DNA of 64,000 nt from Candidatus Thalassarchaeum sp. (GTDB taxonomy: Archaea; Thermoplasmatota; Poseidoniia; Poseidoniales; Thalassarchaeaceae): contig JAKURL010000009.1 in assembly GCA_022449345.1 (NCBI GenBank), positions 1 through 64,000 on the forward strand. The letters are read 5' to 3'. Made by a program: the position numbers and the translations under genes. Positions 8,768 to 61,678 of this stretch are shown piece by piece. Under the pieces are notes generated by a model. That model was not told the DNA's origin and did not search any database. It was given only the letters and a program-made list of their open reading frames with translations. Every line of letters begins with the position of its first letter. Position 1 is the first letter of the stretch.

Positions 8768-8784
8768 ATTGACCTACGGTCAAT
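8768..8784. repeat. Perfect hairpin ATTGACC-TAC-GGTCAAT, 26 nt after the GAPDH stop
   Basis: Direct reading: 7-bp arms, 3-nt loop. Confidence 0.85.
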
Positions 8785-8810
8785 TCAAAAAGCGATTGAG
8801 ATGATTCGAT

Positions 8811-9851
8811 TCAAAGACCGTAGTAAGTATCGATTGCAGAATCGGTTTTTGCAACCGATTTTCGCCAATCCGACTCAGTACCCATGAGGGCACGAATACA
8901 ATCGATGTTCTCTGGAATTACATCACTTTCTTGATGAATTGCTTGGAAATAGTATAGTCGATTTTCCACTAATTTCACCCCGTCTTCCCAAACAAAGATT
9001 TCGTGTAAATCGCCCCACTTTCTTCCAATATCACGAGCCATCTCCATGACCTCTGCAGTAGTTGTAATTCGATTCTGCTCACCGTGCATTACAATCACTC
9101 TAGGTTGATTCTTCCACATCTCAATAATCGATTCTGTAGTTAGCCCATGTCCTTCAGGTAGATCAGCGATTATTGAATGGACATGCATTATTGTCGTCGG
9201 GACTGCAACCGCTAGAGAGTTGATTTCGATTTCGGGCTTTACGGTCATGACATCTGGGCCGTGGTGGCTTGGAACATTGAGAACTGGTTTGATGGCGTTG
9301 ATTGGACCTTTCTTTGAGTCACCGGGGTCGGCTGCGCGGCGAACCATTGTACATTCGACCTTTAGTGAGCCACAGTGATCGTAGAGTGGCACCAAAGTTC
9401 GGGAAAGTCCTGTAGTGTTGCAAGACACCACTCTTGTTCCGTCTGCGTTCAAATTAGCAGCATGATTGGCGCAAGAAGTGTATGACATACCTGTAAGATC
9501 GTGCTTCTCTCCACCTTGGAAGATATGCTTGATTCCTGCGGCCCTGTATTTAGCAAGATTGCCTGCTCCCATCTTTCCAGGAGCACAATCGATTACAACA
9601 TCTGCCGCCGCTAATAGGTCTGAGAGACCGCCTTTGCAGTCGTATCCTTGCTCGGCGAAGGCAGCAATTCTGTCTGCATCATCAAATGTGCAGTACAATG
9701 GAAAGCCCTTCTTTACGGCTAAATCACAACCAAAGGAAGGGCCGGTTTTTGACACTCCAATTATTTCCATGTCGTCCTGCGCATCTACCGCATCAGCAAC
9801 ACGTTTACCTATCGTTCCAAATCCGTTGATTGCGACCTTAATTGTCCCCAT
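8811..9851 (-). CDS. gap: Type II (archaeal) glyceraldehyde-3-phosphate dehydrogenase
   Basis: MGTIKVAINGFGTIGKRVADAV; VVSCNTTGLSRTL catalytic Cys region; archaeal-type GAPDH. Confidence 0.93.
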   Translation of the reverse strand: MGTIKVAINGFGTIGKRVADAVDAQDDMEIIGVSKTGPSFGCDLAVKKGFPLYCTFDDADRIAAFAEQGYDCKGGLSDLLAAADVVIDCAPGKMGAGNLAKYRAAGIKHIFQGGEKHDLTGMSYTSCANHAANLNADGTRVVSCNTTGLSRTLVPLYDHCGSLKVECTMVRRAADPGDSKKGPINAIKPVLNVPSHHGPDVMTVKPEIEINSLAVAVPTTIMHVHSIIADLPEGHGLTTESIIEMWKNQPRVIVMHGEQNRITTTAEVMEMARDIGRKWGDLHEIFVWEDGVKLVENRLYYFQAIHQESDVIPENIDCIRALMGTESDWRKSVAKTDSAIDTYYGL

Positions 9852-9979
9852 GGTGTAGCCCCATACGCCCTTTGGGCAAACTAACGCCGTAATCGAACCT
9901 CTATCAATAATGCTCTCACGAGGCGGAGTTCCAAAAACCATAGATTATTGCAATATTCCGTATCTTGGCGCCCGTCAGA

Positions 9980-11560
9980 ATGAAGACCGTATCCATTCCG
10001 TCAATGTATGAGAGTGCCATGCGCGACATCACTGTGAAGAGCGTCAAACTAAATCGAGACCTTGACAAGATGCTTGAGCAGGCACTTGAGAGGGACTTGC
10101 TGGTTCGCATAGGCTGGGGTAAACAAGGCGATGAAAAACCCAAGAAAGGGGAGATTGGGGTAATCACCCACCTTCCTGAAAATTCCAGAGTTTTGCTACT
10201 TGGAGATCTAGGTGAGTGTGCTGGTGCAATGAATGATGGCGGGACCTTCACCCTGCAAGGCGGATGCAGTTCGATGCTAGGCGCTTTCCAAAAGTCTGGT
10301 AGAATTACAATCGAGAGTGATGCTGGAGATCGTGCGGGACACAGAATGAATGGAGGCGAGATTATCATTCAAGGTTCTGTAGGGGATGAAACAGGGGCGG
10401 GAATGCAAGGTGGATCCATCATTGTCAGAGGTCACTCAGGTGAGGCAACCGGATCTGGAATGGCAGGAGGTACTGTGGTTGTCCTTGGAAACACAGGAAA
10501 TGAACCTGGCAGAGGTATGGTTGGAGGCCGTGTAATCATCTCCGGCTCTTGCCCCCCACCAGGTGAGGGGGCAACAATGAGGTCGATCGAAGCCAGTGAA
10601 TTAGATGAACTGGCTGAACATCTTGAACCATTAGGATTGCACATAGATTCAGATGCTCTAGTAATTGTACCAAGCGAAGATGGCCCCCCAGAAGCAGAAT
10701 TTCCCGAGACTTCCATCACTGAAGGATTCGAGGGGATTACCCTAGTTCCTTCGGCAAGAGACAGACTTCCAACCCATTCACCAATAGACACCAGTTCGCC
10801 ACTACGCCCCGCTGGACAAGACGAATATGCCTTGATTGCCCCCCTTCCTTGGATAATTGAAACCGATAGGATGACTGCAAATACTGGCACTTATGGCACT
10901 AGCCAACCCGGATTGGTCACTACTGAACCTAGGGCTAATGATCTAATGTTAATCACCGAAGACAATCTTCTCGAAGCTGCTGGGCTCATCCACAATTGTT
11001 CGGGGATGGTCCTAGATCTAACCCAAATGCCTGTAATTAACGATGCAGAGATTGAAGCACTGCTAGTCTCTCTATACAGTAGGATGGCTGATGATTCACT
11101 AGTATTCCTGAAAGATAGCGTTTCAAGGGTTGAACACCTGTTCCGACTGGTTGTGGACTTGGATCTTGACGGTGCATTAGTCGACGTTGCCACTGCCGGA
11201 GGTTCTAGGGCGGCAGCGGCCTTACCAAGAATTGGTCTTGTTGCACAAGCCATGAGCCTACCAAAACAAGGTAGGAAGATTATGCTTAAGTTGGATGAAG
11301 CACCTTCGGCAGAGGACCTCCTAATTGCAATTGCAGCCGGATGTTCAGCGATTGTTGCACCGGCGGCGGACGATGATGTAGAGGCTGCCTTGACTTGGAT
11401 TGATGGAATCATGAGAGGTTGGATGTTAGAATTGGGAATAAGCAACCTTTCTGAATTAACTAGGCGAAACTTGCGTGCTCTTGATCATGACACAGCGGCA
11501 ATTTCTGGCCTCCGCTTAATCGGATATGATAGGCCGCTTCCAATGTGGTTGAGAAATTGA
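9980..11560 (+). CDS. GXGXG (glutamate synthase alpha-like) domain protein with degenerate GltS-like C-terminal region
   Basis: Repeats GAMNDGGTFTLQG / GHRMNGGEIIIQG / GAGMQGGSIIVRG / GSGMAGGTVVVLG / GRGMVGGRVIISG; C-terminal LELGISNLSELTRRNLRAL resembles the end of GltB FMN domains. Confidence 0.75.
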   Translation: MKTVSIPSMYESAMRDITVKSVKLNRDLDKMLEQALERDLLVRIGWGKQGDEKPKKGEIGVITHLPENSRVLLLGDLGECAGAMNDGGTFTLQGGCSSMLGAFQKSGRITIESDAGDRAGHRMNGGEIIIQGSVGDETGAGMQGGSIIVRGHSGEATGSGMAGGTVVVLGNTGNEPGRGMVGGRVIISGSCPPPGEGATMRSIEASELDELAEHLEPLGLHIDSDALVIVPSEDGPPEAEFPETSITEGFEGITLVPSARDRLPTHSPIDTSSPLRPAGQDEYALIAPLPWIIETDRMTANTGTYGTSQPGLVTTEPRANDLMLITEDNLLEAAGLIHNCSGMVLDLTQMPVINDAEIEALLVSLYSRMADDSLVFLKDSVSRVEHLFRLVVDLDLDGALVDVATAGGSRAAAALPRIGLVAQAMSLPKQGRKIMLKLDEAPSAEDLLIAIAAGCSAIVAPAADDDVEAALTWIDGIMRGWMLELGISNLSELTRRNLRALDHDTAAISGLRLIGYDRPLPMWLRN

Positions 11561-11569
11561 GGTGTTAGC

Positions 11570-13324
11570 ATGCCGACTCTAAATCTGCAGCATAGCCTGC
11601 TTGAATACATACAGAATCTCAACGGCTCGGAGCACTCTCCGGAGTCTTGGTCTGAATGGCTGCCGGCTATCGGATGCCCAGTAGAAGGAAGTGATGAGGA
11701 GGTCCTTGAGGTCGAGGTGTTTCCCGACCGCCCAGACTTGCTAAGTCATGAAACAATGGCAAGGGCCGGACGAGCATTCTTGCAAGGCGAAATTCAAGAC
11801 CAATCCATTCAAACATCCGACAGTGGTATGGTGCTGGATGTTGACTCCAGTCTCAAATCTGTCAGACCGGTTATCATGGCAGCAATCGTTAGGTGTGTAA
11901 ACAACGGTGAGACTACTGAGGGAAGAGATGAATTCATTCAATCCCTAATGGATCACCAAGAGAAATTACATCTAAGCCTCGGGCGAAGAAGGAGATTTTC
12001 TTCTATTGGAGTCCACGACCTTTCGACTTTGAGTCCTCCATTCAGAGTCATTACCGTCCCCGGTTCACACTCATTTGTACCACTAGCAATGGATGAAAAA
12101 ATGACTATAGACGCGATACTTACTGAGCATCCAAAGGGTGTCGAATATGCTCATTTAATGGAAGAACTGGAAGTTTATCCTGTAATTATTGACTCTAATG
12201 ACGATATCCTTTCCTTCCCTCCAATAATTAACGGAGACCACACTACAGTTACCGATTCGACGACTGATTTCTTCATCGATGTCACGGGCTGGGATGAACG
12301 CGCTGTTGAAGCCTGTTTGCTTCTAGTATGCCTTTCTTTGGCTGAGCGAGGAGGGACAATAGAGCAAGTTCAGGTGAATGGTTGTGATGGACAGGTTCGA
12401 TTAACTCCGAATATGGAGGCAAAAGAACACAGAGTTTCTGACCGATTAATCAATCGCGTTCTCGGATTGACTCTCGATAGTGAAGAGATTTCCTCGGCCA
12501 TCCAAAGAATGGGAGGAACTCTGATGACGTCCCGCGCCGTAACAGACGGAGTAAACAAAGCCGAGCGCTGGGCTGACCTAGAGGTCGGTGAGCGAGAACA
12601 TGTAATCGCAATGCCACGATGGCGATTTGACATTATGCACCCAGTTGATATCGTCGAAGATATCGCCATCGGCTATGGTTACAAGAATATGCCAAATATA
12701 CTCTCATCAGTTCACTTAGATGCCATTCCATTACCCTCTGCCCACCTGCATAGAAGGGTGCGTGAGAGTTTACGCTCACTAAATCTGCAGGAGACTCAAA
12801 GCCTAACTCTATCCAATGACAGAGTCCAGTTCGACAATACCCGATGGTATAGATTAGCCGAGACTACCGAATTGGCTAACCCGATTACCATTGACCATAC
12901 AATGATGCGTCAAAGGATTCTTCCAAGTTTATTGCAACTACTCGCAGCCAATCGTCATCACGAATTGCCTCAACGGGTTTACGAGCTTGGAACTGTTGTG
13001 TTGGATTCACACAATGCGACAAGGGCCGCTTGGGCCTGTGCTGAGGTGGGGGGTGGTTTCTCCGCAGCCAAAGGATTTGCCCAAGCACTACTGAGAGATA
13101 TTGGAGCTGACCTAGATAATGTTGTTTGGGAAGCCACTGAATCAGATGAAGGGCCTTGGTTAGCAGGTAGAGGTGCTAAGGTTCTGATCTCTGGAGAAGA
13201 AGTAGGTCAAATTGGAGAATTAGACCCCGTAATCGCTTCTGAATTCGGCCTTAGAGTGCCAATTCAAGCGGGTGATTTTGACATCGATGCGCTAGGCAGT
13301 CTAATCCCTGACCCAGTTCTCTGA
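11570..13324 (+). CDS. pheT: Phenylalanyl-tRNA synthetase beta subunit
   Basis: 584 aa; EVEVFPDRPDLLSHETMARAGRAFL; DIMHPVDIVEDIAIGYGYKNM; QAGDFDIDAL. Confidence 0.93.
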   Translation: MPTLNLQHSLLEYIQNLNGSEHSPESWSEWLPAIGCPVEGSDEEVLEVEVFPDRPDLLSHETMARAGRAFLQGEIQDQSIQTSDSGMVLDVDSSLKSVRPVIMAAIVRCVNNGETTEGRDEFIQSLMDHQEKLHLSLGRRRRFSSIGVHDLSTLSPPFRVITVPGSHSFVPLAMDEKMTIDAILTEHPKGVEYAHLMEELEVYPVIIDSNDDILSFPPIINGDHTTVTDSTTDFFIDVTGWDERAVEACLLLVCLSLAERGGTIEQVQVNGCDGQVRLTPNMEAKEHRVSDRLINRVLGLTLDSEEISSAIQRMGGTLMTSRAVTDGVNKAERWADLEVGEREHVIAMPRWRFDIMHPVDIVEDIAIGYGYKNMPNILSSVHLDAIPLPSAHLHRRVRESLRSLNLQETQSLTLSNDRVQFDNTRWYRLAETTELANPITIDHTMMRQRILPSLLQLLAANRHHELPQRVYELGTVVLDSHNATRAAWACAEVGGGFSAAKGFAQALLRDIGADLDNVVWEATESDEGPWLAGRGAKVLISGEEVGQIGELDPVIASEFGLRVPIQAGDFDIDALGSLIPDPVL

Positions 13325-13334
13325 GTCCATAACT

Positions 13335-16431: not shown

Positions 16432-16446
16432 AGTTGCCGACGGTTC

Positions 16447-17184
16447 GTGGATGGCCACTGGATCATTGGAGTTGACGAGGCTGGTAGAGGCCCAGTCATC
16501 GGCCCATTAGTAGTTGGAGCATTAGCGATTCCATCAGGGGATATAGATGAATTATCTAAAATGGGAGTTAAGGATTCAAAGGAGATTCCAAGCCATAAGC
16601 GAGTTCGTATTTCTGAACAAATCACCCAGACCATAGAGCAGGGTCGATGGAAATCCGGACTCATTGTCTGTAAACCAAATCGAATCGATATCAATAGCAT
16701 ATCTTCGGATTTGAATAGTCTTGAAATCGAGTTGTTTTCTGAGGCGATATCGGCCACCAAATTATTTACCCAATCAGGAGTAATTAGAGCAGATGCTTGT
16801 GATGTGAGTGAAGAGAGATTTAGAAGTCGCTTGGCTTCATGTCTAGGAGATGATTGGAAAGAGTGGAATATCGAGGCTGAGCATGGTATGGACTCGAAGG
16901 ATGTTGTTGCTGGTGGCGCCTCAATTATTGCCAAAGTTGCTAGGGATTTAGCCATCGAAGAAATATCAGCCCGTACAGGTATAGATGTAGGTTCAGGATA
17001 CCCTTCTGACCAAACCACTAGAATAGCTGTTGAGAGCCTCCTATCTAATGGTAAGCCACATGACTCTCTCAGGTGGAGTTGGGCCACAGTCTCTGACATT
17101 TGGCAGAAGTTGCATAGCACCCCTGTTCCGGTCCGCTCGAAGAATGGTGGTTCGGTTGTACAATCCTCACTTGATGACTGGTAA
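16447..17184 (+). CDS. rnhB: Ribonuclease HII (GTG start)
   Basis: WIIGVDEAGRGPVIGPLVVGAL; DACDV; ehgmDSKDVVAGGASIIAKVARD. Confidence 0.93.
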   Translation: MDGHWIIGVDEAGRGPVIGPLVVGALAIPSGDIDELSKMGVKDSKEIPSHKRVRISEQITQTIEQGRWKSGLIVCKPNRIDINSISSDLNSLEIELFSEAISATKLFTQSGVIRADACDVSEERFRSRLASCLGDDWKEWNIEAEHGMDSKDVVAGGASIIAKVARDLAIEEISARTGIDVGSGYPSDQTTRIAVESLLSNGKPHDSLRWSWATVSDIWQKLHSTPVPVRSKNGGSVVQSSLDDW

Positions 17185-17209
17185 GTGTGAGAAGCGTCAA
17201 ATGCCTCAC

Positions 17210-17228
17210 ATCGGGCCGAAGGCCCGAT
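17210..17228. repeat. Perfect hairpin ATCGGGCC-GAA-GGCCCGAT, 25 nt after the rnhB stop
   Basis: Direct reading: 8-bp arms, 3-nt loop. Confidence 0.85.
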
Positions 17229-18950: not shown

Positions 18951-18990
18951 AAATTTAGCTCCTCGCACGTGGGCGGCGCCTACGGCGCCG
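18951..18990 (+). repeat. Intergenic module A: AAATTTAGCTCCTCGCACGTGGG + hairpin CGGCGCC-TAC-GGCGCCG (18974-18990)
   Basis: Direct reading; related to the 37759-37797 module on the opposite strand. Hairpin is 26 nt after the gltX stop. Confidence 0.75.
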
Positions 18991-19063
18991 ACATCAGAAA
19001 ATCAAGTCAATAGGACTCCCATAAGGGTCGCATTCAAGGACATAAAGCGAGTCAGCGTGCATT

Positions 19064-37758: not shown

Positions 37759-37797
37759 CGACGGCTACGCCGTCGCACACGTGTGTGAGGAGCAAAA
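37759..37797 (-). repeat. Intergenic module B (read on minus): AAATTTTGCTCCTCACACACGTGTG + hairpin CGACGGC-GTA-GCCGTCG (37759-37775)
   Basis: Direct reading; also holds palindrome CACACGTGTG at 37776-37785. Confidence 0.75.
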
Positions 37798-45516: not shown

Positions 45517-45558
45517 ATGGCTGGGGCATCTCAAACTGATTTAATCATAGGGTTGTAT

Positions 45559-45573
45559 CGAGCCGTAGGCTCG
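45559..45573. repeat. Perfect hairpin CGAGCC-GTA-GGCTCG, 28 nt after the 45602 gene stop
   Basis: Direct reading: 6-bp arms, 3-nt loop. Confidence 0.8.
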
Positions 45574-46924: not shown

Positions 46925-49900
46925 TCAGAATGGCGCGCCGGGCCTTCTAGGGCCAGAGCGTGTGAAGTACCACAACACAAACACTAGAATAACTGCAAGA
47001 ATTATTCCAATTACCGTTGTTGGGGTTGAATCTTCGAAGGCTTGAGCCTTAAGTGTGTATCTCTCGCTTACAGTTTCAGGCTCTTGACCGAATTCTTGCC
47101 CCTCGCTTGAAATTTCAAAGTCAAACCATTCCGGTGATGGGCCAAAGTCGGTCAGATCGATGTCGATTAGATAGGTGACCGTATCGCCAGATAACACATC
47201 TTGAGTAACACTGGCGTTAACATTAGTTCCACGAACCGTGGCGACCAATTTCACGCTCTCAGCATCCACCAAACCGGTATTTTCCACCTGTACTGTGAAT
47301 GTGTGGATTGTCCCGAACTGCGGGTCGCCGTTAGAAAATACATTGCTTATCTCAAGTACTGGTAGTGAGGTCTTCACTCGAATTGCTATTGGTGGATAGG
47401 TCCCGTTATTCTTGTCTTTAACCGAGATAGTGATGATGAAGTCCTCATCTCCAGTAGCGTTTTCAGGTGCGATGACCTTGATTGTGTGGGTTGTATCCGT
47501 GAATGCTCCTACCGTGTGCGATGTGGCACCTGTTCGCTGCCAATCGGGAGGAAGTTGAGAGTCATCGAATTCAAATTCAAATCTCTCGTCTCCATTTCCA
47601 CTATTTGTGAATAGTATCGGAATTGACAATTCCTCACTTGGTCTAACTCCATATACATCAAGCAATGGCTCCCTAAGTTCGAAATTATGGAATTGAGGAA
47701 TTCGAACGATTACTTCCTGTTCAAATTGATAGCCGTCTGCAGATGTGAATCTGATGTCGACGGTGTGGCCATTAGCTAGGGATTGAGCAATCGATTGGTT
47801 GGCTGGAGTGACTCGTAGGCGCAGATTGTCATAGGTTGTACTATTGTTACTGTCTAGACCGAATTCAAAGGTGAAGGGGGTGGTCCAATTTTCAACTGAT
47901 GAATCCCAAGCCTCGACCATCCAAGATTGGCCATCAGTACCTGCTACATTACCTGAAACGGTGTAACTCGATACGGTTTCATGACCTAGATAATCTAGTG
48001 AAATGGTGAATTCAATTGAATCATATTCTCCGTCTTCTCTGAGCGATGTTTGGACATCATCAAATTCTTCTTCTTCAGTCAGGGCTCCACCGGTGACAGC
48101 CACAATCGTGGCATTGATGGTGTGGTTAGAAATACGGTCGAATAGTAAGTCCTGAGTAACTGAGGCAGTAAGGTCGGTTCCCGATCCTGGGATACTAATT
48201 GACTTGGCAGCAGTATATTCCATTAGACGATCCATTTGCTCGACCGAGAATCCTCCTTCAACCTCAATCACACCACTTGGCATTAGGATAGATATCTCGC
48301 CTTCTTCACTCAACATAGCATCCCATCGAACACCAGCTCCAGAAGATAGGATGAATTCGACTTCATCTACAATATCTGCACCTTCAACGTCAGTCTCGGA
48401 AGCATGGTGCTGAGTTCCCTCGAAGTCAATCCATTGAGTTGAAAGGTAGAGCCATCCACCGTATACCAGATCGACGTCAACATTGCCACCATCATTGATA
48501 TCAGCCTCGATGCTTGCCATTCCAACGAGATTTGAATCCCCAAATGTCGCTCTAATTATCCAGCGACCGGGTTCTACAGAAGCAGTCCATTGACCGTTCC
48601 ATACGCCATCATCGTAGACCTTGTGAGGTACAACACGCTCACGGACCATGCCATGTGTTGGAATCAATATCAGTTCGACTTGTTGACCGATATTTGCTAA
48701 ATCAGAATGGCTAACATTTCCATAAATGTCTACGTGACCTGCTGTCAATTCTATTTCCACTGAATTTGGAGCATTGACTGCTACAGATTCATTTTCTTCA
48801 TCAAATCCGGCCCTCATGGTTGAGATTTGCCAAGTTGTTCCTGCGGGTACGAAAACATTCCATTCTCCCGCCGAATCAGTGGTTTGAGTTATGTTATCGT
48901 GGCCCTCACTTGTCATGTATATTTCCACATCTGGCACACCCTCCCCTACATCTGCATCGTCGTCATCATCGTGATCCCAGAATATTGTACCAGACAATTC
49001 GTAGTATGTTGAGGAAACGATATCGATTAGTTCGTTTTCTCCTGCAACCAAACCACCATCGACTAATTCAACTGACTCGATGATATATCGAGCCCCATCA
49101 TCAGTCTGGTTAAGTTCGACATTCCACGAACCAGAAGTTATGATTCCAGAGGTTTGGCCGGAATCAGCAGTCATGTCAAGATATATGCTTCCTAATCCAT
49201 CATTGGATGTTAGAATTAATTCCATGTCCTGTAGATAGAGGCCATCTTCATCTGAAATTCTAATTGAAAATGATGCAAGTTCGCTAGTTGAGATTGTATG
49301 TGCATCGTTAGCATTTTGCTCAGCTACGGTAATCGTAGTTCTAACTCCTTCAATAATACCTGCCCCAGTAGTAACTGAATCGATTGCAACAATCCAGTCT
49401 CCGTCCGGCAAGTGATCGATTAGAGTACCATTCATGTCGGTCTTTCGAGAAATTATTACACCGCTGTTTTCGATATCAATGAATCTAACTAACTGATCTA
49501 CGAGTGGCCCACCGCTTTCGTTAGTAAATGTCAGATCCACCTTCCATTCTGGGTCAAAGCCAATACTTCTAGTAACGACTTCACCACCAAAACCAACATC
49601 GAAGTAGGCATCTCCAGTCATTATTCTGGTACCGAAGAGGTCTCCGGCGCGAGCGTTGGAAATTTCTACATCGATACGATACGAACCAGCCTCAATCGGA
49701 ACGCGCGCGAAACCGTCGAATATCCACTCACTACCATCGGCCTCTACATCTAATGTCAACCCAGCACTGTTTTCCACAGGTACAATCGAGAACCTATATT
49801 CTACAGGTGTTCCATTGGCGACGTCATTATTTCCATTGTAATCGAGGAAGAAATCTATCTCAACATATGATGGATCTGGGTAAAGATACATGTTTACAGT

Positions 49901-52900
49901 GTCATTATCTCCATCCACCTCAAGTGTGGCCTCGCTTGCATTCAACCAATCTAAATTGGTTGTAAATGTCCAGTTTCCTTGAGGTAGAATAGTATTGAAA
50001 GAGCCAAATTCAGTAACTTCGATGTGCCAGACTGCATCAATGCTCTCGTGCATAGCGTATACGATAACTGGCTCCCAGCCATCTATATTGGAGGTGTAGT
50101 AATTTCCTAATCTATTGACATTTAGAGCACCGGAGACCTCGCTTCCTGGACGGGCAACCATGGTTACGTTGTCCATTCCCTCCTCGACAGTAAATCGAGT
50201 ACCGTTGACTATGTTCAGAACATTACCAAACACAGTAGCGTCAACAACAGAACCAATTGGTAAAACAACATTGAATACACCTTGTGCATTAGTTGTTACA
50301 GTGGTTGTGAAATTGTCCCAGTGGAAAAATACTGAAGTAAAGTCGACTTCCTCTGCACCAATTATTGAATCAGAAACCTCCGAATTGGTTGCGTTGTAGT
50401 AGACTGTTCCTACAACATTCATTGAATCTCTAAACGCAAATGAAGTGTTTATGTCGGATTCAATGTCTATTTGCTCCCATAGTTGCTCGGAATCACTTAA
50501 TGTATGGCTGAGTACCCACTCGCCTTCTGGCAATTCAACTAGGTATTCACCCGTGTCATTATCGTAGATTGCAAGAATGGATGGAATCGAACTGTCGGTG
50601 CTCGATAGAGTCAAGTTTAGATTCTCAACAGGGGTTTCTGTTCCATCTGAAATTTGAGTTAGTGAGAATCTCATATCATACACGGTCGGAACAGGAGTAG
50701 GGAAGTTTACTTCTGAGTCAATATCTGCTTCAAATTCATGGATTAGCTCTACCTCATTGAATCCATCTTCATCCATGTCTAGTTCAAAGATGTACTCACC
50801 TGGCACAATTGGGCCAAACTCGAACGAGCCATTCTGATCAGCAGTCATTTGACAAGGAGCGTACATTACCTCACTACATTCTCCGAGTAAAGTATCATTT
50901 TCGGAGTCAACCAGCATCATTGACACAGATCCAGACAGTGGATTACCATCAGTGTCGGTCAAGATTCCAGAAATTGCCCCACCAGCCACATCGATTTCGT
51001 GAAGCGATGGAACACCTTGGAAGGGTACATAGAATCCATCATTAATGTCAATTTGAGTTCCATCAGAGAATACAATTGTTACATCGTATTTTCCAGGTAT
51101 CGCGTCGATTAGGTGGAAGGTTCCAGCTTGTACCATAGGTCCACTAAATTCACCTTCTCCTGTGAAAGTACCAGTTCCATTTAGTGTGCCGAAGGATACT
51201 AGATTCTCATTGCTGGCATCGATTGTGAACATTCCGGCTCCAGTTAGAGAAGACCCATTATGTTCTTGCGAGAAAGAAGATGTTCCATTGGATGTAAATC
51301 TACCAGTTGCGTTGATAGCTCCATCGATTAGGAAGTCACCATCCGCAAATGAACAAACAGAGAAGTTCTCAGGCATTGTTCCATTCTCATTACAATCACC
51401 ATTAACGACACCCTCTCCATCGATAACGCCGGAAAGAGTTCCTCGCCCAGTAAATTCACCAGAGCCAGCAAGGCTGTGTCCGTGAAGAATAGTCTGGGTG
51501 TGTGTGCCAACGAAATCAGTCACAGTCATCAGACCGTTGCTAATCACCTCTCCCTCACCGGTAAAGGTCACTTGACCAATTCCTTGGAAAGATAGGTCTG
51601 GACCGATTACGCTTCCTGTAGAAGTCTCTAGGTTAATCGGTTGCATCTGAATTTGATCCCAAGAAGGTGTCAATTCAACAACTGCGTTTGTGATTGCTTG
51701 TCTATCAAATGAATCAACACCATTCCAAATTAGACGGCCAGTGGAGAATGATGGTTCAACTATAATATCAGCATCAACCTGAATCTGGCCATTTGAATGG
51801 CCTGCTTCGCCAGACACGTTTACAATAGTCTCCGATAGCCATTGGGCACCGGTTACATTTCCTAGAATTCCGGTGATTAAGTTGACACTGCGTACTCCGG
51901 TATTTGATTCGGTGGCTACGTCTTGCAACATACCACCGGAGCCGCTGGATAATTCATCGCGGGCAGCTCTCACATCTGGTTCCCCAAAGAAGGCTGAGAC
52001 TCTGATTTTTCCTGCTGGAACGGTAAAAGAGAACTCTCCGTTTTCATCTGCGTCAACTGTTCCTATCGGAATCCAATAGGTTCTAGGGTCGCGGTCGATA
52101 ACGGTACCGTTCTCATCGGCGACTTCTTCGCCACTAAAGGCGTCTCGCTCAATCAAAATACGAGCATTAGGAACAGGCCCTATCCCGTCCAATTCGACTG
52201 TTCCTTCTAGGGTTGCGCCACTGTAATATTTGACGACCTTAACGTTTGTATTGGCTCGACCAATTGCAGCATATCCTCCATCGAATATGTCTGGTACACT
52301 GTTATTGTCTTCATCTGGTGAGTCGGTTCCATCATTGTACCAATTTGCAATGACAAAGTGATTCATCATTGCACCAGGAAGAGGGAAGGCATTCTCAAGA
52401 GGAGAACCAGGGGTTCCACTGATTGCCCATGTAGGCCCGGGCTGAGATGGATCTACTGTTAATCCTAAGCTTGAGGTGCCGTATCCGACGTAAATTCTAG
52501 CAACCATAGTTTCGAAGAATGATTCCGTTTGTTGATACTGAATGTCGACAAGTTGAATCATATCAGAAGAATCTTGCATTGCGCCTGATTGCTGCTTTAC
52601 GACGTCTGTCATATACTCCTGCTCATAGCGCTCCGCGCTCATGAACACTGTGGGAACTAATGAAGGGTCACCTCTTTGAGTCTCGTAAACCGACTCAATG
52701 TAATGACTAGGATCTAGCCCAGAGAGGGTAGTTGGAGCATAGAAAATCCCAGTAGTTTGGCCGCGGTGGTAACTTTGGTCAGCGTAATATGCTCCGCCGA
52801 GTGGATACAATCTATCGTCAATTGCGAAGTAGCGAATCTCGTTGTTTCGGTTAATTGTTTCACCCAAACTACCTTCGTAATCTTGAACTTCATACTCAAC

Positions 52901-55900
52901 CATAGTAGTTATCTCATGATAGAGTTGTACGAGTTCATCTAAAGTTAATGCAGAAGTTAGGAAAGCCCGAGAGAGGCCGAGCTTTGCATTTGCCCGATGA
53001 AGGTTGGTTGAGACATCATCGTAGTCTTCAATTAAATCCGCTGTGTATCTGTATCCACCAATCTCGTAGTGAGTTGTGTCTTCCTCATAGGGTTGGCTAG
53101 AACCGCGTGCTTGGTTGAATAGTGTCTTGGCTTCAGTCTCGTTGGTGGTCGCATTTCCAACCTGTTCTCCATCTTTGAAAACGAACCACATTTCATCCGT
53201 AGGTAGTCCATTTTCATCAAGAACAGTTCCTCGCATCAAATCAGTGGTAATCTTGAGATTTCCATCAGTGAAGGATGAATCTTGTATCTCCTGAACATTC
53301 TGATATACGAGAACCAATGAACGGTCAATGACAAATTGTTTTTCGCCCGGTCCGATTGACAGAATGTTGTGGAATTCTTCAACTTGGTCCACTGAGAAAT
53401 GGTTAGCAAGAATCTCCTTGAATTCCTCACCAAATTCTCCATCTCCAGAATACTGTCGGTCACCTTGTGCAAGAGTTGCGATAAACATCGCAAGTGTATC
53501 CTCTTGTCCGGAAGATAGCAACATAGCACCACTGTGTGGAATTCCTGACTGGAAGTTGTCAGCAACTGTGGGATGTTCTCCGGAATCTAAGGCTTGGAAA
53601 CCATAATCCCACCAAGAGACAAATGCAGGTCTTTCCCCAAAGGACTCGTCAGAATCTTGTTCGGAAAGCCATTCGTAAGCCATATTCCAACCTCCGCCGT
53701 TGAATCCTGGACCGAAGGTCCCCATATACCAGCAACCACTTCCACAATTCGCGGATGGATTGTAGGAACTGCTATCCAATAACGAAATGCCTCCTACATC
53801 GTACCTCATTACGTCTGGAGTCATGTCGTAAATTACCTGATCCACATCTCCGGATGCAGTCTCTCCACGGGGGATACCCGAGTCGATACCATAGGTTGCA
53901 TGTTGTGTTGCTACGAGCATGAATACTAGCACGAGGGCTGGAATCATCGGCTTCTTGGCGCTAGCAGTTCTAACCGAACGGAAGCGAGCTCTTGGAGTAC
54001 CTATTCCAGCACGACGCCATTCCTTGACAAAACTAGAGAAATCGGCCATCTTCCAAAGTGCTGCAATGCCGATTGCACCGACAACTGCCATGGCTGGTGT
54101 TGCGTTGAAAATGAATCTACCAGCAGTCCAAGCCATGTAAGCGGCAATAATTACCCAAAGGCCAACTAGAGACAGTCCTTGCTTCTCCTCTCGGGCACCC
54201 CGCCAGAGAAGGATAAATGCATATCCAAGGGCAATCAATGTAACAATTGGGCCATAGGAAGCGAATAGCACACCTCTGCTCGGTGCCTGTGCCTCACCAA
54301 TAGTTCCGAAAATCTTGTTCTTTGAGAAGTAGAACCCACCTGTGAATAGGATATCCCAGCCATCGTAGATTTCTGCTGTCTGTAGAACCCATAGAGCGGA
54401 AAGAATTCCCCCGAAGAGTAAGACGCCGCTACCCAATACCAACAGCCATGGCTTGTCTCGGAAGCTGGAGGCGACCCACCCTAGGGCAATCGTGAATCCA
54501 ACGATATAGAACATTGGCTGAAATCCACTTGGAGCCCATAATAGGTTCAGACCTGGCCAGATGTAGAAGGGCAATGGAATTAGGAAAGTTGTGAGCATCA
54601 TTTGCAATGCTGCGGAAGTCAATGGAAGACTGTCACGTCGACGGAACATATTGAGGACAATCTGAAAAGCAAAGGCAAGGAATAGAATTCCAGGGCCGTA
54701 AACGAATCCCTTCCAACCCAACGCTACTGTTGAGAAACTGATTCCAGCTAGGGTTGCGTAGGACATCATGATAGCATTACGATTCCACATCTCTCGTATT
54801 CCCGCAATCAAATAAAGCGGATTCGGGCTTGGATTTCGGAAAATACGTTCGCTACCAATCTCGCCTAGAGCTCTAACCCAGAAATAGAATGCCATTGTTA
54901 AGAATAACAAAGCGAAGGAGTCGTGATCTGCTAGACCAAATGTTGAGTGGCTAACATGACCAGGCATCAAAGCCATCAGCCAAGCTGCGACAATTCCGGC
55001 TTGGGAGCTGTGGAGACGATTTGCAATCCCTGATACTGGCAAGACGATTAGTGCACCAAAGATTGCAGGGAATCCTGCAACTGACCACCAAACAATTTCA
55101 TCAGCCGTAATTCCAGTCAACCATTCCAGTGCTAATCCACCGAGTGCAAGACACCATGAGAATAGAGGGGGTCGCGGATTGATTCCACCGCTTGGATAAG
55201 ATCGATCAGCATCGAAAATGAAATGGGAATGCTCTGCGACAATATAGTCAACAACTCTCTTCATGTACCAAGGGTCAGAACCTCCAGTCATATCCCAAAG
55301 TCCAGTGACATTTGCGTTCATTGCTGGAAGTACATTCCAACCAGTTCTAATCAACAAACCAACAAGAACCGCCGAACCTACTAGTATGGAATAGGAATTA
55401 TCTCGCCACCATAAGCGGAACTCACTAGGTTCGCGACGTGGAGCGATTTCACCGAATCTACCGCTTGAAGCGAGCATAATCGCTAATACATTCAACCAGA
55501 ATGTGATGAAGAACCACGAGAATGCCCCGCCGAAATCATTTCCGGCAAGGAATTCCAATTGTTCAGGGAGACTAACTCCTATCTCGACCATGTGTGAAAG
55601 AGTGTAAATTAGCCAATTTACGGCAACAACGGATCCTAGTACATGCCATCTTTCCGCACGGCAGAAGGAAACAAACAGGACTACAATTGAAGTGACTAAA
55701 GCCCAAACTCCGCCAAGATAATGATGTTCTTCAAAAGCAGAAGCATCGGAAATAGTTGCCAACGAATAGAGAGGGACCAAGTTCACCAACAAAAGAACAA
55801 TTCCAGTGATGACTATGTCACGATGCCCAGAGAAGCCAATCTTGGATGGTAGTCTTTCGAATAGAGGTCCAATCCCTCCTCCGTATAGAATCCCTCTGAA

Positions 55901-56467
55901 AGCGATGGCTAGGATAGTTCCTAGCATCATCGATGCAACATAGAAAGCAAAGAAGTTTGCAGCGATTCCAGCCCTTTGGACATCGATAAGCAGATTCTGC
56001 AAAGTTGCTCCCTCTGAGAGAGTTAATTCTGGCATTGTTGCAGCATATGCAACAGAAACATGGAATCCTGCGACCATTGTGAATAGAATCGTCGCCTCCT
56101 CATTTCTATTGGATTTAACAAGAATCAAGGTTGATATCGCCATGAATGCAAAAGTTGTCGCTAGTATGGCGTCAATAAATCCGAGAGCTTCCAAAGCGAT
56201 TGTCGAAATCGCTACGAGAACTGAGAACACAGAGGTTCTCTTCACGACTGAATCATCAGGAAGGGCAGATACCCATATCCTTCCCAAAACAGCCGCGGTA
56301 GCGGCTGCGACGGGAAGGATAACCAACTTTCCTGTGTCAATCATCGCATCATCAGCGAAGGTTGTAGCGGAGAAAAATAGCAGGAGCAGTCCTGCTAGTA
56401 CCGCCGGTGTCGAAACCAGTCCATTGAACTGGCCGACGTCCTTCGTATTCCCGTTTTCGTAAGACAT
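46925..56467 (-). CDS. aglB: Giant AglB/STT3-like oligosaccharyltransferase fused to a very long extracellular repeat region and a C-terminal TM
   Basis: 3180-aa continuous ORF; multi-TM N-terminus; FVSWWDYGFQALDSGEHPTVADN catalytic motif; DPWYMKRVVDYIV; later CarboxypepD_reg-like, Gly-rich and NEW3-like segments. Confidence 0.87.
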   Translation of the reverse strand: MSYENGNTKDVGQFNGLVSTPAVLAGLLLLFFSATTFADDAMIDTGKLVILPVAAATAAVLGRIWVSALPDDSVVKRTSVFSVLVAISTIALEALGFIDAILATTFAFMAISTLILVKSNRNEEATILFTMVAGFHVSVAYAATMPELTLSEGATLQNLLIDVQRAGIAANFFAFYVASMMLGTILAIAFRGILYGGGIGPLFERLPSKIGFSGHRDIVITGIVLLLVNLVPLYSLATISDASAFEEHHYLGGVWALVTSIVVLFVSFCRAERWHVLGSVVAVNWLIYTLSHMVEIGVSLPEQLEFLAGNDFGGAFSWFFITFWLNVLAIMLASSGRFGEIAPRREPSEFRLWWRDNSYSILVGSAVLVGLLIRTGWNVLPAMNANVTGLWDMTGGSDPWYMKRVVDYIVAEHSHFIFDADRSYPSGGINPRPPLFSWCLALGGLALEWLTGITADEIVWWSVAGFPAIFGALIVLPVSGIANRLHSSQAGIVAAWLMALMPGHVSHSTFGLADHDSFALLFLTMAFYFWVRALGEIGSERIFRNPSPNPLYLIAGIREMWNRNAIMMSYATLAGISFSTVALGWKGFVYGPGILFLAFAFQIVLNMFRRRDSLPLTSAALQMMLTTFLIPLPFYIWPGLNLLWAPSGFQPMFYIVGFTIALGWVASSFRDKPWLLVLGSGVLLFGGILSALWVLQTAEIYDGWDILFTGGFYFSKNKIFGTIGEAQAPSRGVLFASYGPIVTLIALGYAFILLWRGAREEKQGLSLVGLWVIIAAYMAWTAGRFIFNATPAMAVVGAIGIAALWKMADFSSFVKEWRRAGIGTPRARFRSVRTASAKKPMIPALVLVFMLVATQHATYGIDSGIPRGETASGDVDQVIYDMTPDVMRYDVGGISLLDSSSYNPSANCGSGCWYMGTFGPGFNGGGWNMAYEWLSEQDSDESFGERPAFVSWWDYGFQALDSGEHPTVADNFQSGIPHSGAMLLSSGQEDTLAMFIATLAQGDRQYSGDGEFGEEFKEILANHFSVDQVEEFHNILSIGPGEKQFVIDRSLVLVYQNVQEIQDSSFTDGNLKITTDLMRGTVLDENGLPTDEMWFVFKDGEQVGNATTNETEAKTLFNQARGSSQPYEEDTTHYEIGGYRYTADLIEDYDDVSTNLHRANAKLGLSRAFLTSALTLDELVQLYHEITTMVEYEVQDYEGSLGETINRNNEIRYFAIDDRLYPLGGAYYADQSYHRGQTTGIFYAPTTLSGLDPSHYIESVYETQRGDPSLVPTVFMSAERYEQEYMTDVVKQQSGAMQDSSDMIQLVDIQYQQTESFFETMVARIYVGYGTSSLGLTVDPSQPGPTWAISGTPGSPLENAFPLPGAMMNHFVIANWYNDGTDSPDEDNNSVPDIFDGGYAAIGRANTNVKVVKYYSGATLEGTVELDGIGPVPNARILIERDAFSGEEVADENGTVIDRDPRTYWIPIGTVDADENGEFSFTVPAGKIRVSAFFGEPDVRAARDELSSGSGGMLQDVATESNTGVRSVNLITGILGNVTGAQWLSETIVNVSGEAGHSNGQIQVDADIIVEPSFSTGRLIWNGVDSFDRQAITNAVVELTPSWDQIQMQPINLETSTGSVIGPDLSFQGIGQVTFTGEGEVISNGLMTVTDFVGTHTQTILHGHSLAGSGEFTGRGTLSGVIDGEGVVNGDCNENGTMPENFSVCSFADGDFLIDGAINATGRFTSNGTSSFSQEHNGSSLTGAGMFTIDASNENLVSFGTLNGTGTFTGEGEFSGPMVQAGTFHLIDAIPGKYDVTIVFSDGTQIDINDGFYVPFQGVPSLHEIDVAGGAISGILTDTDGNPLSGSVSMMLVDSENDTLLGECSEVMYAPCQMTADQNGSFEFGPIVPGEYIFELDMDEDGFNEVELIHEFEADIDSEVNFPTPVPTVYDMRFSLTQISDGTETPVENLNLTLSSTDSSIPSILAIYDNDTGEYLVELPEGEWVLSHTLSDSEQLWEQIDIESDINTSFAFRDSMNVVGTVYYNATNSEVSDSIIGAEEVDFTSVFFHWDNFTTTVTTNAQGVFNVVLPIGSVVDATVFGNVLNIVNGTRFTVEEGMDNVTMVARPGSEVSGALNVNRLGNYYTSNIDGWEPVIVYAMHESIDAVWHIEVTEFGSFNTILPQGNWTFTTNLDWLNASEATLEVDGDNDTVNMYLYPDPSYVEIDFFLDYNGNNDVANGTPVEYRFSIVPVENSAGLTLDVEADGSEWIFDGFARVPIEAGSYRIDVEISNARAGDLFGTRIMTGDAYFDVGFGGEVVTRSIGFDPEWKVDLTFTNESGGPLVDQLVRFIDIENSGVIISRKTDMNGTLIDHLPDGDWIVAIDSVTTGAGIIEGVRTTITVAEQNANDAHTISTSELASFSIRISDEDGLYLQDMELILTSNDGLGSIYLDMTADSGQTSGIITSGSWNVELNQTDDGARYIIESVELVDGGLVAGENELIDIVSSTYYELSGTIFWDHDDDDDADVGEGVPDVEIYMTSEGHDNITQTTDSAGEWNVFVPAGTTWQISTMRAGFDEENESVAVNAPNSVEIELTAGHVDIYGNVSHSDLANIGQQVELILIPTHGMVRERVVPHKVYDDGVWNGQWTASVEPGRWIIRATFGDSNLVGMASIEADINDGGNVDVDLVYGGWLYLSTQWIDFEGTQHHASETDVEGADIVDEVEFILSSGAGVRWDAMLSEEGEISILMPSGVIEVEGGFSVEQMDRLMEYTAAKSISIPGSGTDLTASVTQDLLFDRISNHTINATIVAVTGGALTEEEEFDDVQTSLREDGEYDSIEFTISLDYLGHETVSSYTVSGNVAGTDGQSWMVEAWDSSVENWTTPFTFEFGLDSNNSTTYDNLRLRVTPANQSIAQSLANGHTVDIRFTSADGYQFEQEVIVRIPQFHNFELREPLLDVYGVRPSEELSIPILFTNSGNGDERFEFEFDDSQLPPDWQRTGATSHTVGAFTDTTHTIKVIAPENATGDEDFIITISVKDKNNGTYPPIAIRVKTSLPVLEISNVFSNGDPQFGTIHTFTVQVENTGLVDAESVKLVATVRGTNVNASVTQDVLSGDTVTYLIDIDLTDFGPSPEWFDFEISSEGQEFGQEPETVSERYTLKAQAFEDSTPTTVIGIILAVILVFVLWYFTRSGPRRPGAPF

Positions 56468-56549
56468 TATTTCATCACCGTCTAATTGCAGCCTGAAGGC
56501 TCAGCGTCGCGGCGACCTAAACTTCTGTTATAACCGTTCTCGGAAGAGA

Positions 56550-56564
56550 CGCTACGTAGTAGCG
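56550..56564. repeat. Perfect hairpin CGCTAC-GTA-GTAGCG, 24 nt after the purD stop
   Basis: Direct reading: 6-bp arms, 3-nt loop. Confidence 0.8.
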
Positions 56565-57857: not shown

Positions 57858-57885
57858 ATTGCATACGCAATCGGCGAGGGAGATA

Positions 57886-57901
57886 ATGCATTCCGATGCA
57901 T
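57886..57901. repeat. Hairpin ATGCAT-TCCG-ATGCAT downstream of carS
   Basis: Direct reading: 6-bp arms, 4-nt loop. Confidence 0.55.
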
Positions 57902-57936
57902 GGTCTCTTGACTCAGATTAGTAAACAAGCCAGCAA

Positions 57937-58635
57937 TCAGTATGGTACGGACTTCAATCCAAGTCTGTATCCCAAGACATTGAATGAGCGATGGATAATT
58001 GGAGTTAGGATAATTATCGCAATAATTGCCGACTTGAGGTCATCATGCATCATCACCTCATCGCTGTAGAGCAAAGCTGCTGCGATAAAGATGAAAATTG
58101 CAAATGGGAGAGTGTCCAGTAATGGTGCCTTAGAACTTACTTCACCCTCTCTCCTCAGACCTCTCCGTCGCTTGATGAATGAACCAGCCATATCACCTAA
58201 CATACAGGCACATCCTAGGGTGACCCCCACAATAAATGCCGCTCCCCATTCACCGCCAATCCAGAACCAATCGACTGAATCAGCGGTCAGAATTGGGTCG
58301 ATGAATGGGCGATTGGAAGGCTCTGCATTTCCACCCCATAACCAATGTGCAATTATAACTAAAATTCCAGAAAAACATGCTCCTCCGAACAGACCCTCCC
58401 AAGATTTGCCGTCACCGAGAAGCCTATTCCCGTCGGAATGAATCCTACCCCCGTCAATCTTGTGATTTTCATAACCGAATTTATCTGGAAGCCATTTACC
58501 AAAAAGCATGGCCCCAGTATTCGCCAAATATGCTGGACCATAGATGATTAGAACCGTTAGTACATTCAAACCAAATTCCGCAGGACCTGCGTTGGGAAAA
58601 GCAAGGGCGGACAAGTCAGACATTGTTCTGGCCAT
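57937..58635 (-). CDS. carS: CDP-archaeol synthase (DUF46/CarS)
   Basis: YGPAYLANTGAMLFGKW; IDGGRIHSDGNRLLGDGKSWEGLFGG; LGDMAGSFIKRRRGLRREGE. Confidence 0.9.
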   Translation of the reverse strand: MARTMSDLSALAFPNAGPAEFGLNVLTVLIIYGPAYLANTGAMLFGKWLPDKFGYENHKIDGGRIHSDGNRLLGDGKSWEGLFGGACFSGILVIIAHWLWGGNAEPSNRPFIDPILTADSVDWFWIGGEWGAAFIVGVTLGCACMLGDMAGSFIKRRRGLRREGEVSSKAPLLDTLPFAIFIFIAAALLYSDEVMMHDDLKSAIIAIIILTPIIHRSFNVLGYRLGLKSVPY

Positions 58636-58714
58636 TCGCTCATGCGAGAAGAACTCTCGGTTTCTTACTCATGCCGCCGATTCCTTCATTGATGACTGGT
58701 TGTACGACCCATTG

Positions 58715-60406
58715 ATGAGCAAATCTAAGACCGCGCTATTGGGAATATTACTTCTTACTTCTCTAGCCTCAACAACCTCACTGAACGTTGGGGCACAATC
58801 AGCAGAAATTGTCATCGATTCGCAAGTTGAATGGATCGAAGATCGGTCTTTAGAAGGTGACTTGCGTATTGTTTCCGGAGGTGATTTGACTCTAAATGGC
58901 TTGAAACTTAGTATTTCAGATGGCGTCACCATATTGGTAGAGGAAGGGGGGATATTAAACGTCCAAAGTTCAGAGATTGAAGACACAAATCCACCCACTG
59001 GATTGGCAGGATACGGATATTGGGATGAAGTAAATCGTTCTGCTATATTGATTCCTGGTTCAGATTACGATGGCCCATTTGATGCTACTTTTCACTCTGG
59101 AGAAACCGGCTCATTCTATGGTGGTCAAGCAATAATAGAAGGTCGGGACGCAATCGACCTAAACGGTAGCGAATTTACACTCTCCTTCGATGCAGATACA
59201 GATGATGTTTGGGTTGGGTTAGTTGGTTATGGCCATCAATCAGTCCATCTTGCTACTGTTACGATGATTCCAGACCTAGGTTCATCCATCACTTACAACG
59301 CGATTGATTTGCAATATCAAAACATGATGGCATTAGATAACGATGGAACGACCTGTGACATAGAAATCGCTGGATCCGCGGATTTTGATGACTCCTCAAT
59401 ACTAGGCTGTAAGATCGTCGTCGATGGGATGATGACTATTCATTCAACCTCAATCGACCGTACAGGCCCAATTATTTCCAACGAGAATTCAGACTTGGTT
59501 CTTAGTGGACAAACGGCATTTTCCATGAGTAAAGCCGACCACGATGTTCGTGCACATGCAAATTCTAGACTACATTGGGGAGAGGATGTACTAGGTAGTG
59601 GAGGTCACACAGATCGATGGGAGAGGGTAATTGGCTCCCAGGAATTACACTTCGATGCAGCCGGCGTCTTGTTCAGAATACTCAACTTTGGCCAATACGA
59701 AATCACCTCCTCGACATATTTCAGTGATGAAAATGGTGTAGGGATTATTGATTCAGGCAATTCGAGAACAGTAGAAATTGGCTGGGCGGATGGAAGCGAA
59801 CCCTGGACCGAATCAGCCAGTATCGAAATCATTGAGTATCGAACAGGATGGAATATGGATGCATCAATGGATGATTACGGTGGAGGAATTATTCCGCTAA
59901 CTTGGGATGAAGTGACTGTAATCGATGGAAACACTCCGTTCATCGAATTTGTTTCCGTAGATTTCCAGAACCCAACCGAGTCTATCTCTAGAGGCAGTGG
60001 AGGAGTTGGACTACTAGCTACCATCGCAAACCGCGGAACTGCTCCCGCTACCGTGTATTTCACGTGCGATGTAAGCGAGTCTGGAGTCGCTGCACAAATG
60101 ACAAGTTATCCAGGTGGATTAATTGAGGCGGGCGAAGAAATAGCCATTCAATTCTCATGGATGAATAGCGACACAGATTTGGCAAGTCTAACCTGTGAGA
60201 TACTCACGCCAACCCAATTAGTCGAAGAGGATGCATTCGGTGGAGGAATCGCTTCAACTGGTCAAATTACTTGGTTTGATCCACCTGATGAAGAGGGGTC
60301 GATAATACCGATTGTTGTGGCAATATTCATTGCCATAGCAACGATGGCAGCATTCTTCTTCAGAATGACAAAGTCATCTGAGGACGAAGAGGAAGAACTG
60401 TACTAG
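58715..60406 (+). CDS. Secreted protein with C-terminal TM
   Basis: MSKSKTALLGILLLTSLASTTSLNVGAQS signal; TM IIPIVVAIFIAIATMAAFFF; acidic tail. Confidence 0.75.
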   Translation: MSKSKTALLGILLLTSLASTTSLNVGAQSAEIVIDSQVEWIEDRSLEGDLRIVSGGDLTLNGLKLSISDGVTILVEEGGILNVQSSEIEDTNPPTGLAGYGYWDEVNRSAILIPGSDYDGPFDATFHSGETGSFYGGQAIIEGRDAIDLNGSEFTLSFDADTDDVWVGLVGYGHQSVHLATVTMIPDLGSSITYNAIDLQYQNMMALDNDGTTCDIEIAGSADFDDSSILGCKIVVDGMMTIHSTSIDRTGPIISNENSDLVLSGQTAFSMSKADHDVRAHANSRLHWGEDVLGSGGHTDRWERVIGSQELHFDAAGVLFRILNFGQYEITSSTYFSDENGVGIIDSGNSRTVEIGWADGSEPWTESASIEIIEYRTGWNMDASMDDYGGGIIPLTWDEVTVIDGNTPFIEFVSVDFQNPTESISRGSGGVGLLATIANRGTAPATVYFTCDVSESGVAAQMTSYPGGLIEAGEEIAIQFSWMNSDTDLASLTCEILTPTQLVEEDAFGGGIASTGQITWFDPPDEEGSIIPIVVAIFIAIATMAAFFFRMTKSSEDEEEELY

Positions 60407-61608
60407 CAACTTGAGACTTGAGTCCAAGACTCCTCAGTATCTTGAGGATTATCCTCATCTCCACCAAATTCTGCAAGTTCGTAATATGTAGTTGACACAT
60501 GAGCTGTACGATCGCCCCATGGTGGACTTTGAGTTACTGAGACGGTGAATTCGTAGCAGCCGTAATCAGATTCCTGCCAATCTTCTCTTGGGATGTAATA
60601 CATATTGATCGCAAAGTCTTCTAATGAACCATCGAGAATCAATTCTGAGCCGAAATCACCAACTGTTGCAGATCCAGAACCATACTGTCCGGACATAGAA
60701 TCCCATGACGCCTCTCCGTTAACCACAGTTACTGAAGGATAGGAAATTGCCGTAGTGCCGTCTTTGGATAACACCGCAGTTAATTCGAAATCGGCATGAG
60801 AAAGAGGTGCTGGCGGGTTTCCGATAAATGTTTCAAGACCAATCCAAGCCTTTAGACCGACTCCTATAACACAGTTATCATGACCTTCGTCACAATCATT
60901 TCCTTGTCCCATGGCTGGCATCGCTTGATTTTTTGTGGCTGTTATCGTTCTCTCTAGATGTGCTGAGTTCAATATGAAAGAATCCGATGAGTCTCCTGAA
61001 TCTACAGAAACAACGTACCTAAATCCATCGGCTGCATTACCTGAATAGAACTCGGAAATTGGAAGAACCAATCTACCATATTCCCCAAATCCATCCTTTA
61101 GGTTAATTGACAACGGCATGACTGATTCCCAGACTTTTTCTCCTCCATAGGTTATCGAGACGTCGGCATCTCCAGATGAACCTCCAAATAAGCCTCCAGA
61201 TTCTCTAATTGTCAGAGTTATCGTTTGGGCGTCTGAAGATAAATCGCCGTCTGTTATTGTAATTGAACCGGAGAATAGGCTACTCGCGATGAATGGGGAC
61301 GCTAGAAGGAGTAAAAGAGTAACAGAAATGACTTGGATGTATTTTCTATTCAAGCCATCCCAAATTAGGAAAAATCCTACGCCACCGAATAATATTGGAA
61401 GAATTATCGCAAATGCAAAATCGCTCTGTATTGATGGAAGAGAATATACCCACATCGAAATTACAGATATAATTGCAGCTCCGATTCCGATGAAGAGAGA
61501 ATTGGGGATTAGACTCTTTTTTTCTGGATCGGCGACCGCTACCGCTACTACTTCATCCGCTGGTTGTTGAACGTCCATCGCCTTCTGAAGCAATCCACCA
61601 TCACTCAT
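60403..61608 (-). CDS. Membrane protein with extracellular C-terminal domain
   Basis: 401 aa; three N-terminal TM segments followed by a beta-rich domain. Confidence 0.72.
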   Translation of the reverse strand: MSDGGLLQKAMDVQQPADEVVAVAVADPEKKSLIPNSLFIGIGAAIISVISMWVYSLPSIQSDFAFAIILPILFGGVGFFLIWDGLNRKYIQVISVTLLLLLASPFIASSLFSGSITITDGDLSSDAQTITLTIRESGGLFGGSSGDADVSITYGGEKVWESVMPLSINLKDGFGEYGRLVLPISEFYSGNAADGFRYVVSVDSGDSSDSFILNSAHLERTITATKNQAMPAMGQGNDCDEGHDNCVIGVGLKAWIGLETFIGNPPAPLSHADFELTAVLSKDGTTAISYPSVTVVNGEASWDSMSGQYGSGSATVGDFGSELILDGSLEDFAINMYYIPREDWQESDYGCYEFTVSVTQSPPWGDRTAHVSTTYYELAEFGGDEDNPQDTEESWTQVSSC

Positions 61609-61661
61609 GCCACTAACCTCTCAGGTCAGCAAGGCGTCGGCTGCGTCGGTTATCAACCCGT

Positions 61662-61678
61662 TGCCACCTACGGTGGCA
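61662..61678. repeat. Perfect hairpin TGCCACC-TAC-GGTGGCA, 20 nt after the 61699 gene stop
   Basis: Direct reading: 7-bp arms, 3-nt loop. Confidence 0.82.

Follow-up and report, generated by a model that had tools for sequence, protein, structure and literature searches.

Between the genes of the archaeon that carries the window (the 64,000-nucleotide (nt) stretch analysed here), perfect inverted repeats with short arms, a 3-nt spacer and a C-RWA-G centre occur far beyond chance. Their conservation and placement indicate that they are best read as promoter elements, lying mostly just upstream of promoters, and not as 3'-end elements. In our estimation there is about an even chance that each of them is a short inverted repeat beside archaeal promoters from which negative supercoiling can extrude a triloop mini-hairpin or a small cruciform. 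A wider proposal is put forward tentatively, at somewhat less than even confidence: the Poseidoniales would possess genome-wide supercoil-extruded mini-hairpins of arbitrary stem, read by loop and structure, as a structural code of housekeeping promoters of a kind not known from cellular genomes. The host is an archaeon of the Poseidoniales (Marine Group II), near Candidatus Thalassarchaeum, and an archaeal 23S rRNA was located at the window edge. Its genome comprises 1.47 Mb in 31 contigs, of which 822 kb (56%) were surveyed for palindromes. Seven of the elements lie in the window (Table 1), and their sequences and coordinates, as listed by a first-pass annotation of this DNA, were all exact.

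The first enrichment count covered the initial 422 kb of the host sequence, with the expectation derived from dinucleotide shuffles. Co-directional gaps contained 26 triloop inverted repeats with arms of at least 6 (4.2 expected) and divergent gaps contained 14 (2.25 expected). When spacers of 0 to 12 nt were compared, only spacer 3 was strongly enriched, with 36 repeats against 5.8 expected at arms of at least 6 and 22 against 1.6 at arms of at least 7; the other spacers did not depart much from the expected numbers, spacer 1 being mildly in excess. In the 822-kb survey, C...G closed 55 of the 84 intergenic spacer-3 repeats, and 45 of these 55 carried the loops GTA/TAC (26), ATA/TAT (9), GAA/TTC (7) or AAA/TTT (3). 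Other closing pairs and other loops were near chance in the host genome. A core site was defined as an intergenic C-RWA-G (C-[RWA or TWY]-G) with a 3-nt spacer and perfect arms of at least 6 Watson-Crick pairs; the counts 45, 41 and 38 refer to the same core sites under slightly different edge rules at gap ends. The density of core sites was 32-fold higher between genes than inside genes, and the 45 sites in 822 kb extrapolate to about 80 per genome. Their arms measure 6 to 9 bp and all 45 are distinct, which bears out the view of the first-pass annotation that these hairpins form one structural family whose arms differ from site to site.

The same annotation had attributed to the family a shared GNA loop. 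A special triloop between C and G is indeed present, but the rule is RWA and not GNA: GTA or GAA is found on one strand in 33 of the 45 core sites, ATA or AAA in the other 12, and a perfect palindrome of at least 6 bp surrounds 26 of the 94 intergenic C-GTA/TAC-G centres versus none of the 88 C-GCA-G centres. Relative to the mRNA, 20 loops read RWA and 13 read TWY, and loops are flipped at orthologous sites with the same arms, so the loop strand is indifferent to transcription, as had been noticed in the window.

The pairing of the arms is all-or-none. At intergenic C-RWA-G centres, the number of sites stayed at chance level through 4 pairs beyond the closing C-G (3 pairs, 4 observed and 6.4 expected; 4 pairs, 2 and 1.7) and then jumped sharply (5 pairs, 17 and 0.5; 6 pairs, 11 and 0.1; 7 or more pairs, 10 and 0.0). 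Altogether, 38 intergenic sites with at least 6 perfect pairs were counted in the 822 kb against 0.6 expected. Sites with a single inner mismatch at C-RWA-G occurred at chance level only in the same 822 kb, and no G.T wobble replacing an inner pair was found in the host genome. No excess of C-RWA-G palindromes was detected in 150 kb of E. coli.

The distribution of the core sites among gaps is compatible with an association with promoters. They were present in 33 of the 245 co-directional and 12 of the 111 divergent gaps, and the 28 convergent gaps contained none (5.6 sites expected, P=0.004), so that their absence from convergent junctions, first remarked on seven sites, holds in the larger survey. 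The distances of 26, 25, 26, 28, 24 and 20 nt from stop codon to hairpin reported for six of the window sites were all correct; this placement at 20-28 nt is a by-product of the shortness of the gaps. When orthologous gaps are compared, the palindrome usually keeps a steady distance to the gene downstream, and its distance to the upstream stop drifts. The site downstream of GluRS lies 73-85 nt from the next start versus 8-60 nt from the stop, and the site downstream of GAPDH mostly 76-79 nt (once 55 nt) from the start versus 26-94 nt from the stop. At the GAPDH junction, the palindrome end is separated from a conserved TCAAAA box by 11-13 nt in the genus and by 5 nt in the GACGCYC-type loci of another clade, with the stop-to-palindrome distance ranging from 14 to 94 nt. 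At the 45559 site the distances to start and to stop are about equally variable across orthologs, and at the 17210 and 56550 sites both are constant. The role at stop codons or 3' ends that the hairpins had been suggested to play is thus not supported, since spacing is kept to the downstream promoter and divergent gaps are as often occupied while convergent gaps are empty.

The fate of five window sites was followed in 85 ortholog loci. The inner arms were identical in 59 loci and perfect with one compensated pair in 3; the remaining 23 were mostly without palindrome, chiefly in AT-rich relatives and some other genera. The compensated pairs belong to the 56550 site, where CGCTAC became CACTAC/GTAGTG in two loci and TGCTAC/GTAGCA in one. 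Loops swap freely among RWA and TWY types, including full flips (GTA to TAC) with unchanged arms. Of 15 genus loci, 13 have the same TTGACC/GGTCAA arms at the 8768 site, around a loop that is GTA, ATA, TAC, TAT or TCT; the 17210 loop is GAA, GTA or GCA in relatives; and the arms of the 18974 site, which most of the genus and two species of a second genus share unchanged, enclose TAC, TAT, TTC, TTT, TGT or GTA. The 37759 palindrome was found in 12 of 16 genus loci.

At the GAPDH-subtilase junction, eight palindromes replace one another by clade (TTGACC, GACGCCC, GACGCTC, ACACCTC, TGGGTCC, GGTTCC, TGCCCC and TGAGCCC), each of which has a C-NNN-G triloop in one or more species, and GACGCCC and GACGCTC are one compensated pair apart. 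As they were listed by palindrome presence, this series describes turnover and is not an unbiased test of covariation. The statement that structure and not sequence is kept therefore stands between sites and between clades; within the genus, the arms are mostly conserved in sequence with few compensated changes. Two side observations concern the same junction. In the genus, GGTCAA, one arm of the palindrome, recurs in the box GGTCAAAAG, which is kept even in relatives without palindrome. After GAPDH, the loci L296, L300, L307, L309, L311, L312, L316 and L317 of some relatives contain TGAGCCCTATAGGGCTCA (L317 has GAGCCCTATAGGGCTC), a perfect palindrome centred on the 4 nt TATA; in most of these loci its first bases are those of the GAPDH stop codon. 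In a Poseidoniaceae genome (G036), only 2 core sites were found in 38.6 kb of intergenic DNA, and the element is therefore not equally common across the order.

The strict Watson-Crick pairing, the symmetry of loop orientation and the independence from the transcribed strand point to an element of the DNA rather than the RNA level. Under the extrusion hypothesis, supercoiling driven by gyrase or by transcription would extrude the hairpin in the cell; loop and stem would then be recognised, or would absorb torsion, and in this way the mini-hairpins could mark the neighbouring housekeeping promoter, tune it or insulate it. The host genome encodes a GyrA of full length (G000:C6:28537-31122) that scores above the NCBIfam cut-off. 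The birth of new perfect palindromes and the loop flips may be explained by template-switch mutation, as template switching can flip a loop or rewrite an arm in a single step (PMC8794818).

Several points weigh against extrusion. With 59 identical loci versus 3 compensated ones, sequence conservation of the arms within the genus goes beyond what a constraint on pairing alone would need. Most sites are lost in several AT-richer relatives, and the element is therefore dispensable at individual genes. GCA and GGA loops are avoided even though they are as stable in DNA as GTA and GAA loops, so the rule must depend on more than stability. The DNA folding parameters used gave an identical energy for every triloop tried. 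Arm conservation and GCA avoidance would both be compatible with a protein that recognises some of the sequence. The boxes and blocks beside the palindromes are putative promoters, recognised by conservation and position; extrusion, recognition and transcriptional effect are inferred, and any binding protein is hypothetical.

The palindromes could instead be ordinary operators, in which case each gene would have one site, of one specificity, for a member of a large set of dimeric transcription factors with a common 3-nt spacing. Anchoring to promoters at fixed spacing and conservation of arm sequence within the genus are what such operators would display, but we consider this explanation unlikely. 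It would require private specificities for 45 distinct arms in 822 kb, with no shared sites, whereas each of the commonest helix-turn-helix families matched only 3 of 150 sampled small proteins; we infer that the genome encodes a few tens of transcription factors, too few for some 80 private sites. Imperfect dyads, usual for operators, are not above chance, and the loop must be non-complementary RWA or TWY, although TWA or RWY loops should suit a symmetric dimer as well. Eight different arms succeed each other at the same gene across clades. The targets are unrelated housekeeping genes, the downstream genes including those for ribosomal proteins S13 and S8e, EF-1 alpha, the RNA polymerase subunit Rpb6, GluRS, pyruvate dehydrogenase E1, a DNA polymerase small-subunit family protein, acyl-CoA dehydrogenases and subtilases. 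The earlier impression that six of seven sites lie ahead of a gene for a membrane or secreted protein does not hold across this mixed set. A genome-wide search for a regulon, made with CGGCGCCNNNGGCGCCG, returned one exact site, its other matches being near the reversed control (69 vs 54). With arms all different and targets unrelated, there is no regulon.

It is improbable, too, that the elements act after transcription as RNA hairpins, i.e. as archaeal terminators, as 3'-end or processing signals, or as insulators against upstream read-through. Most sites do have a stop codon on one side and the following promoter on the other, in some Poseidoniaceae a palindrome begins at the GAPDH stop or no more than 15 nt from it, and the arms are richer in G+C than the gaps (about 0.73 vs 0.51). 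Nevertheless, wobble is not tolerated on either strand, whereas in the control, the 150 kb of E. coli, 27 terminator hairpins were picked out by a crude criterion and 13 of them had G.T within the six inner pairs. Loops of opposite sense are interchangeable, divergent gaps are occupied and convergent ones are not, and spacing is fixed to the downstream promoter and not to the stop. No consistent T run follows the palindromes, and Rfam matched only rRNA and tRNA in the window with no hit at the palindrome sites. The elements are accordingly not bacterial-type intrinsic terminators, as the first-pass annotation had concluded. Both operators and RNA terminators fit worse than an extruded DNA mini-hairpin. 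We know of no duplex-reading mechanism that requires arbitrary but perfect arms, which counts against a protein that would read the CGTAG/CTACG core in duplex DNA and need a perfect self-complementary flank. Such a reader, or a template-switching hotspot whose palindromes persist, is the least probable explanation, although the CGTAG pentamer is very strongly preferred (26 of 94 centres) and loop flips resemble template-switch footprints (PMC8794818), because a hotspot alone leaves unexplained both the arms conserved amid saturated flanks and the fixed promoter spacing.

Table 1. Mini-palindromes of the window and the promoter-like sequences beside them.
Feature	Positions	Strand	Context
Mini-palindrome ATTGACC-TAC-GGTCAAT	8768-8784		Between GAPDH gene (8811-9941, -) and subtilase gene (3936-8726, -)
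Promoter-like box GGTCAAAAG	8749-8757	-	Conserved; includes TCAAAA
Mini-palindrome ATCGGGCC-GAA-GGCCCGAT	17210-17228		Between RNase HII (16447-17184) and GluRS (ATG start 17232)
Promoter-like box GCGTCAAATGC	17194-17204	+	Conserved; upstream of 17210-17228 palindrome
Mini-palindrome CGGCGCC-TAC-GGCGCCG	18974-18990		After GluRS
Promoter-like block GGGTCGCATTCAAGG	19025-19039	+	Conserved; belongs to downstream gene
Mini-palindrome CGACGGC-TAC-GCCGTCG	37759-37775		Divergent gap; 19 nt from GTG start (37740) of - gene, 92 nt from + gene
Mini-palindrome CGAGCC-GTA-GGCTCG	45559-45573
Promoter-like block CCCTATGATTAAATCA	45537-45552	-	Conserved; downstream of 45559 palindrome
Mini-palindrome CGCTAC-GTA-GTAGCG	56550-56564
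Promoter-like block GAACGGTTATAACA	56526-56539	-	Conserved
Mini-palindrome TGCCACC-TAC-GGTGGCA	61662-61678
Promoter-like block GGTTGATAACC	61648-61658	-	Conserved

The palindrome at 17210-17228 is placed between box and start codon, not upstream of the box. A CCTC-led alternating purine-pyrimidine stretch (CCTCGTGTACGCG-like, Z-DNA-like) flanks the palindromes at 18974-18990 and 37759-37775 and their orthologs; in one relative (G025) it is inverted jointly with the palindrome. CCTCGC is over-represented upstream of genes, and a word scan of stretches of the host genome revealed a weak promoter-like word, TTSAAR (TTCAAG, TTGAAG, TTCAAA), with a peak about 25-55 nt before start codons. The largest open reading frame of the window (46925-56467, 3180 codons) is conserved in the genus.

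If the extrusion hypothesis is correct, a promoter-linked cellular element would be identified by the shape of its DNA and not by its sequence, and torsional control of archaeal promoters would become directly testable in a highly abundant marine archaeal group, of which, to our knowledge, no member has been cultured. Whatever the mechanism, all-or-none, arm-independent palindromes at housekeeping promoters are unexplained by described terminators, operators and repeats. In the literature, no description was found of a spacer-3, C-RWA-G, all-or-none class at archaeal promoters.

Like intrinsic terminators, the elements are hairpins that often follow a stop codon; unlike them, they have no U-tract, admit no wobble, are anchored to promoters and occur in divergent gaps. 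REP and IS200/IS605-type palindromes are also short and intergenic with a GTAG motif, but the arms of the present sites are unrelated between copies, and neither a repeat family nor a signal of mobility was seen. Cruciform-capable repeats, surveyed in E. coli (PMC6060812) and in 118,019 genomes (PMC13155455), are likewise perfect inverted repeats that are over-represented around promoters and the boundaries of genes, but they are mixed in spacer and largely terminators; as the latter survey used arms longer than nine bp, elements of the present kind fall below its limit. The closest resemblance in rule is to the early promoters of phage N4, whose hairpins, used by the virion RNA polymerase, need a short stem, a 3-nt loop with 5'G...3'A and a C-G closing pair, tolerate any non-conserved stem bases if the hairpin is kept, and extrude at a superhelical density of -0.035 with Mg2+, in a gyrase-dependent manner in vivo (PMC4496689). 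The GNA mini-hairpin lead of the first-pass annotation is supported. PF00940, the single-subunit RNA polymerase family, gave no match in the host genome, and control genomes gave none either. The archaeal elements appear to share with N4 a short stem (5-7 bp in the N4 type), a 3-nt loop of the purine...A type, C-G closure, stem bases that are free where not contacted, a position beside the promoter and a gyrase in the host; they differ in being chromosomal, at about 80 sites per genome by extrapolation, in lying at cellular archaeal promoters, and in accepting T or A at the loop centre, ATA and AAA loops and either orientation; the likeness is one of rule and not of kinship.

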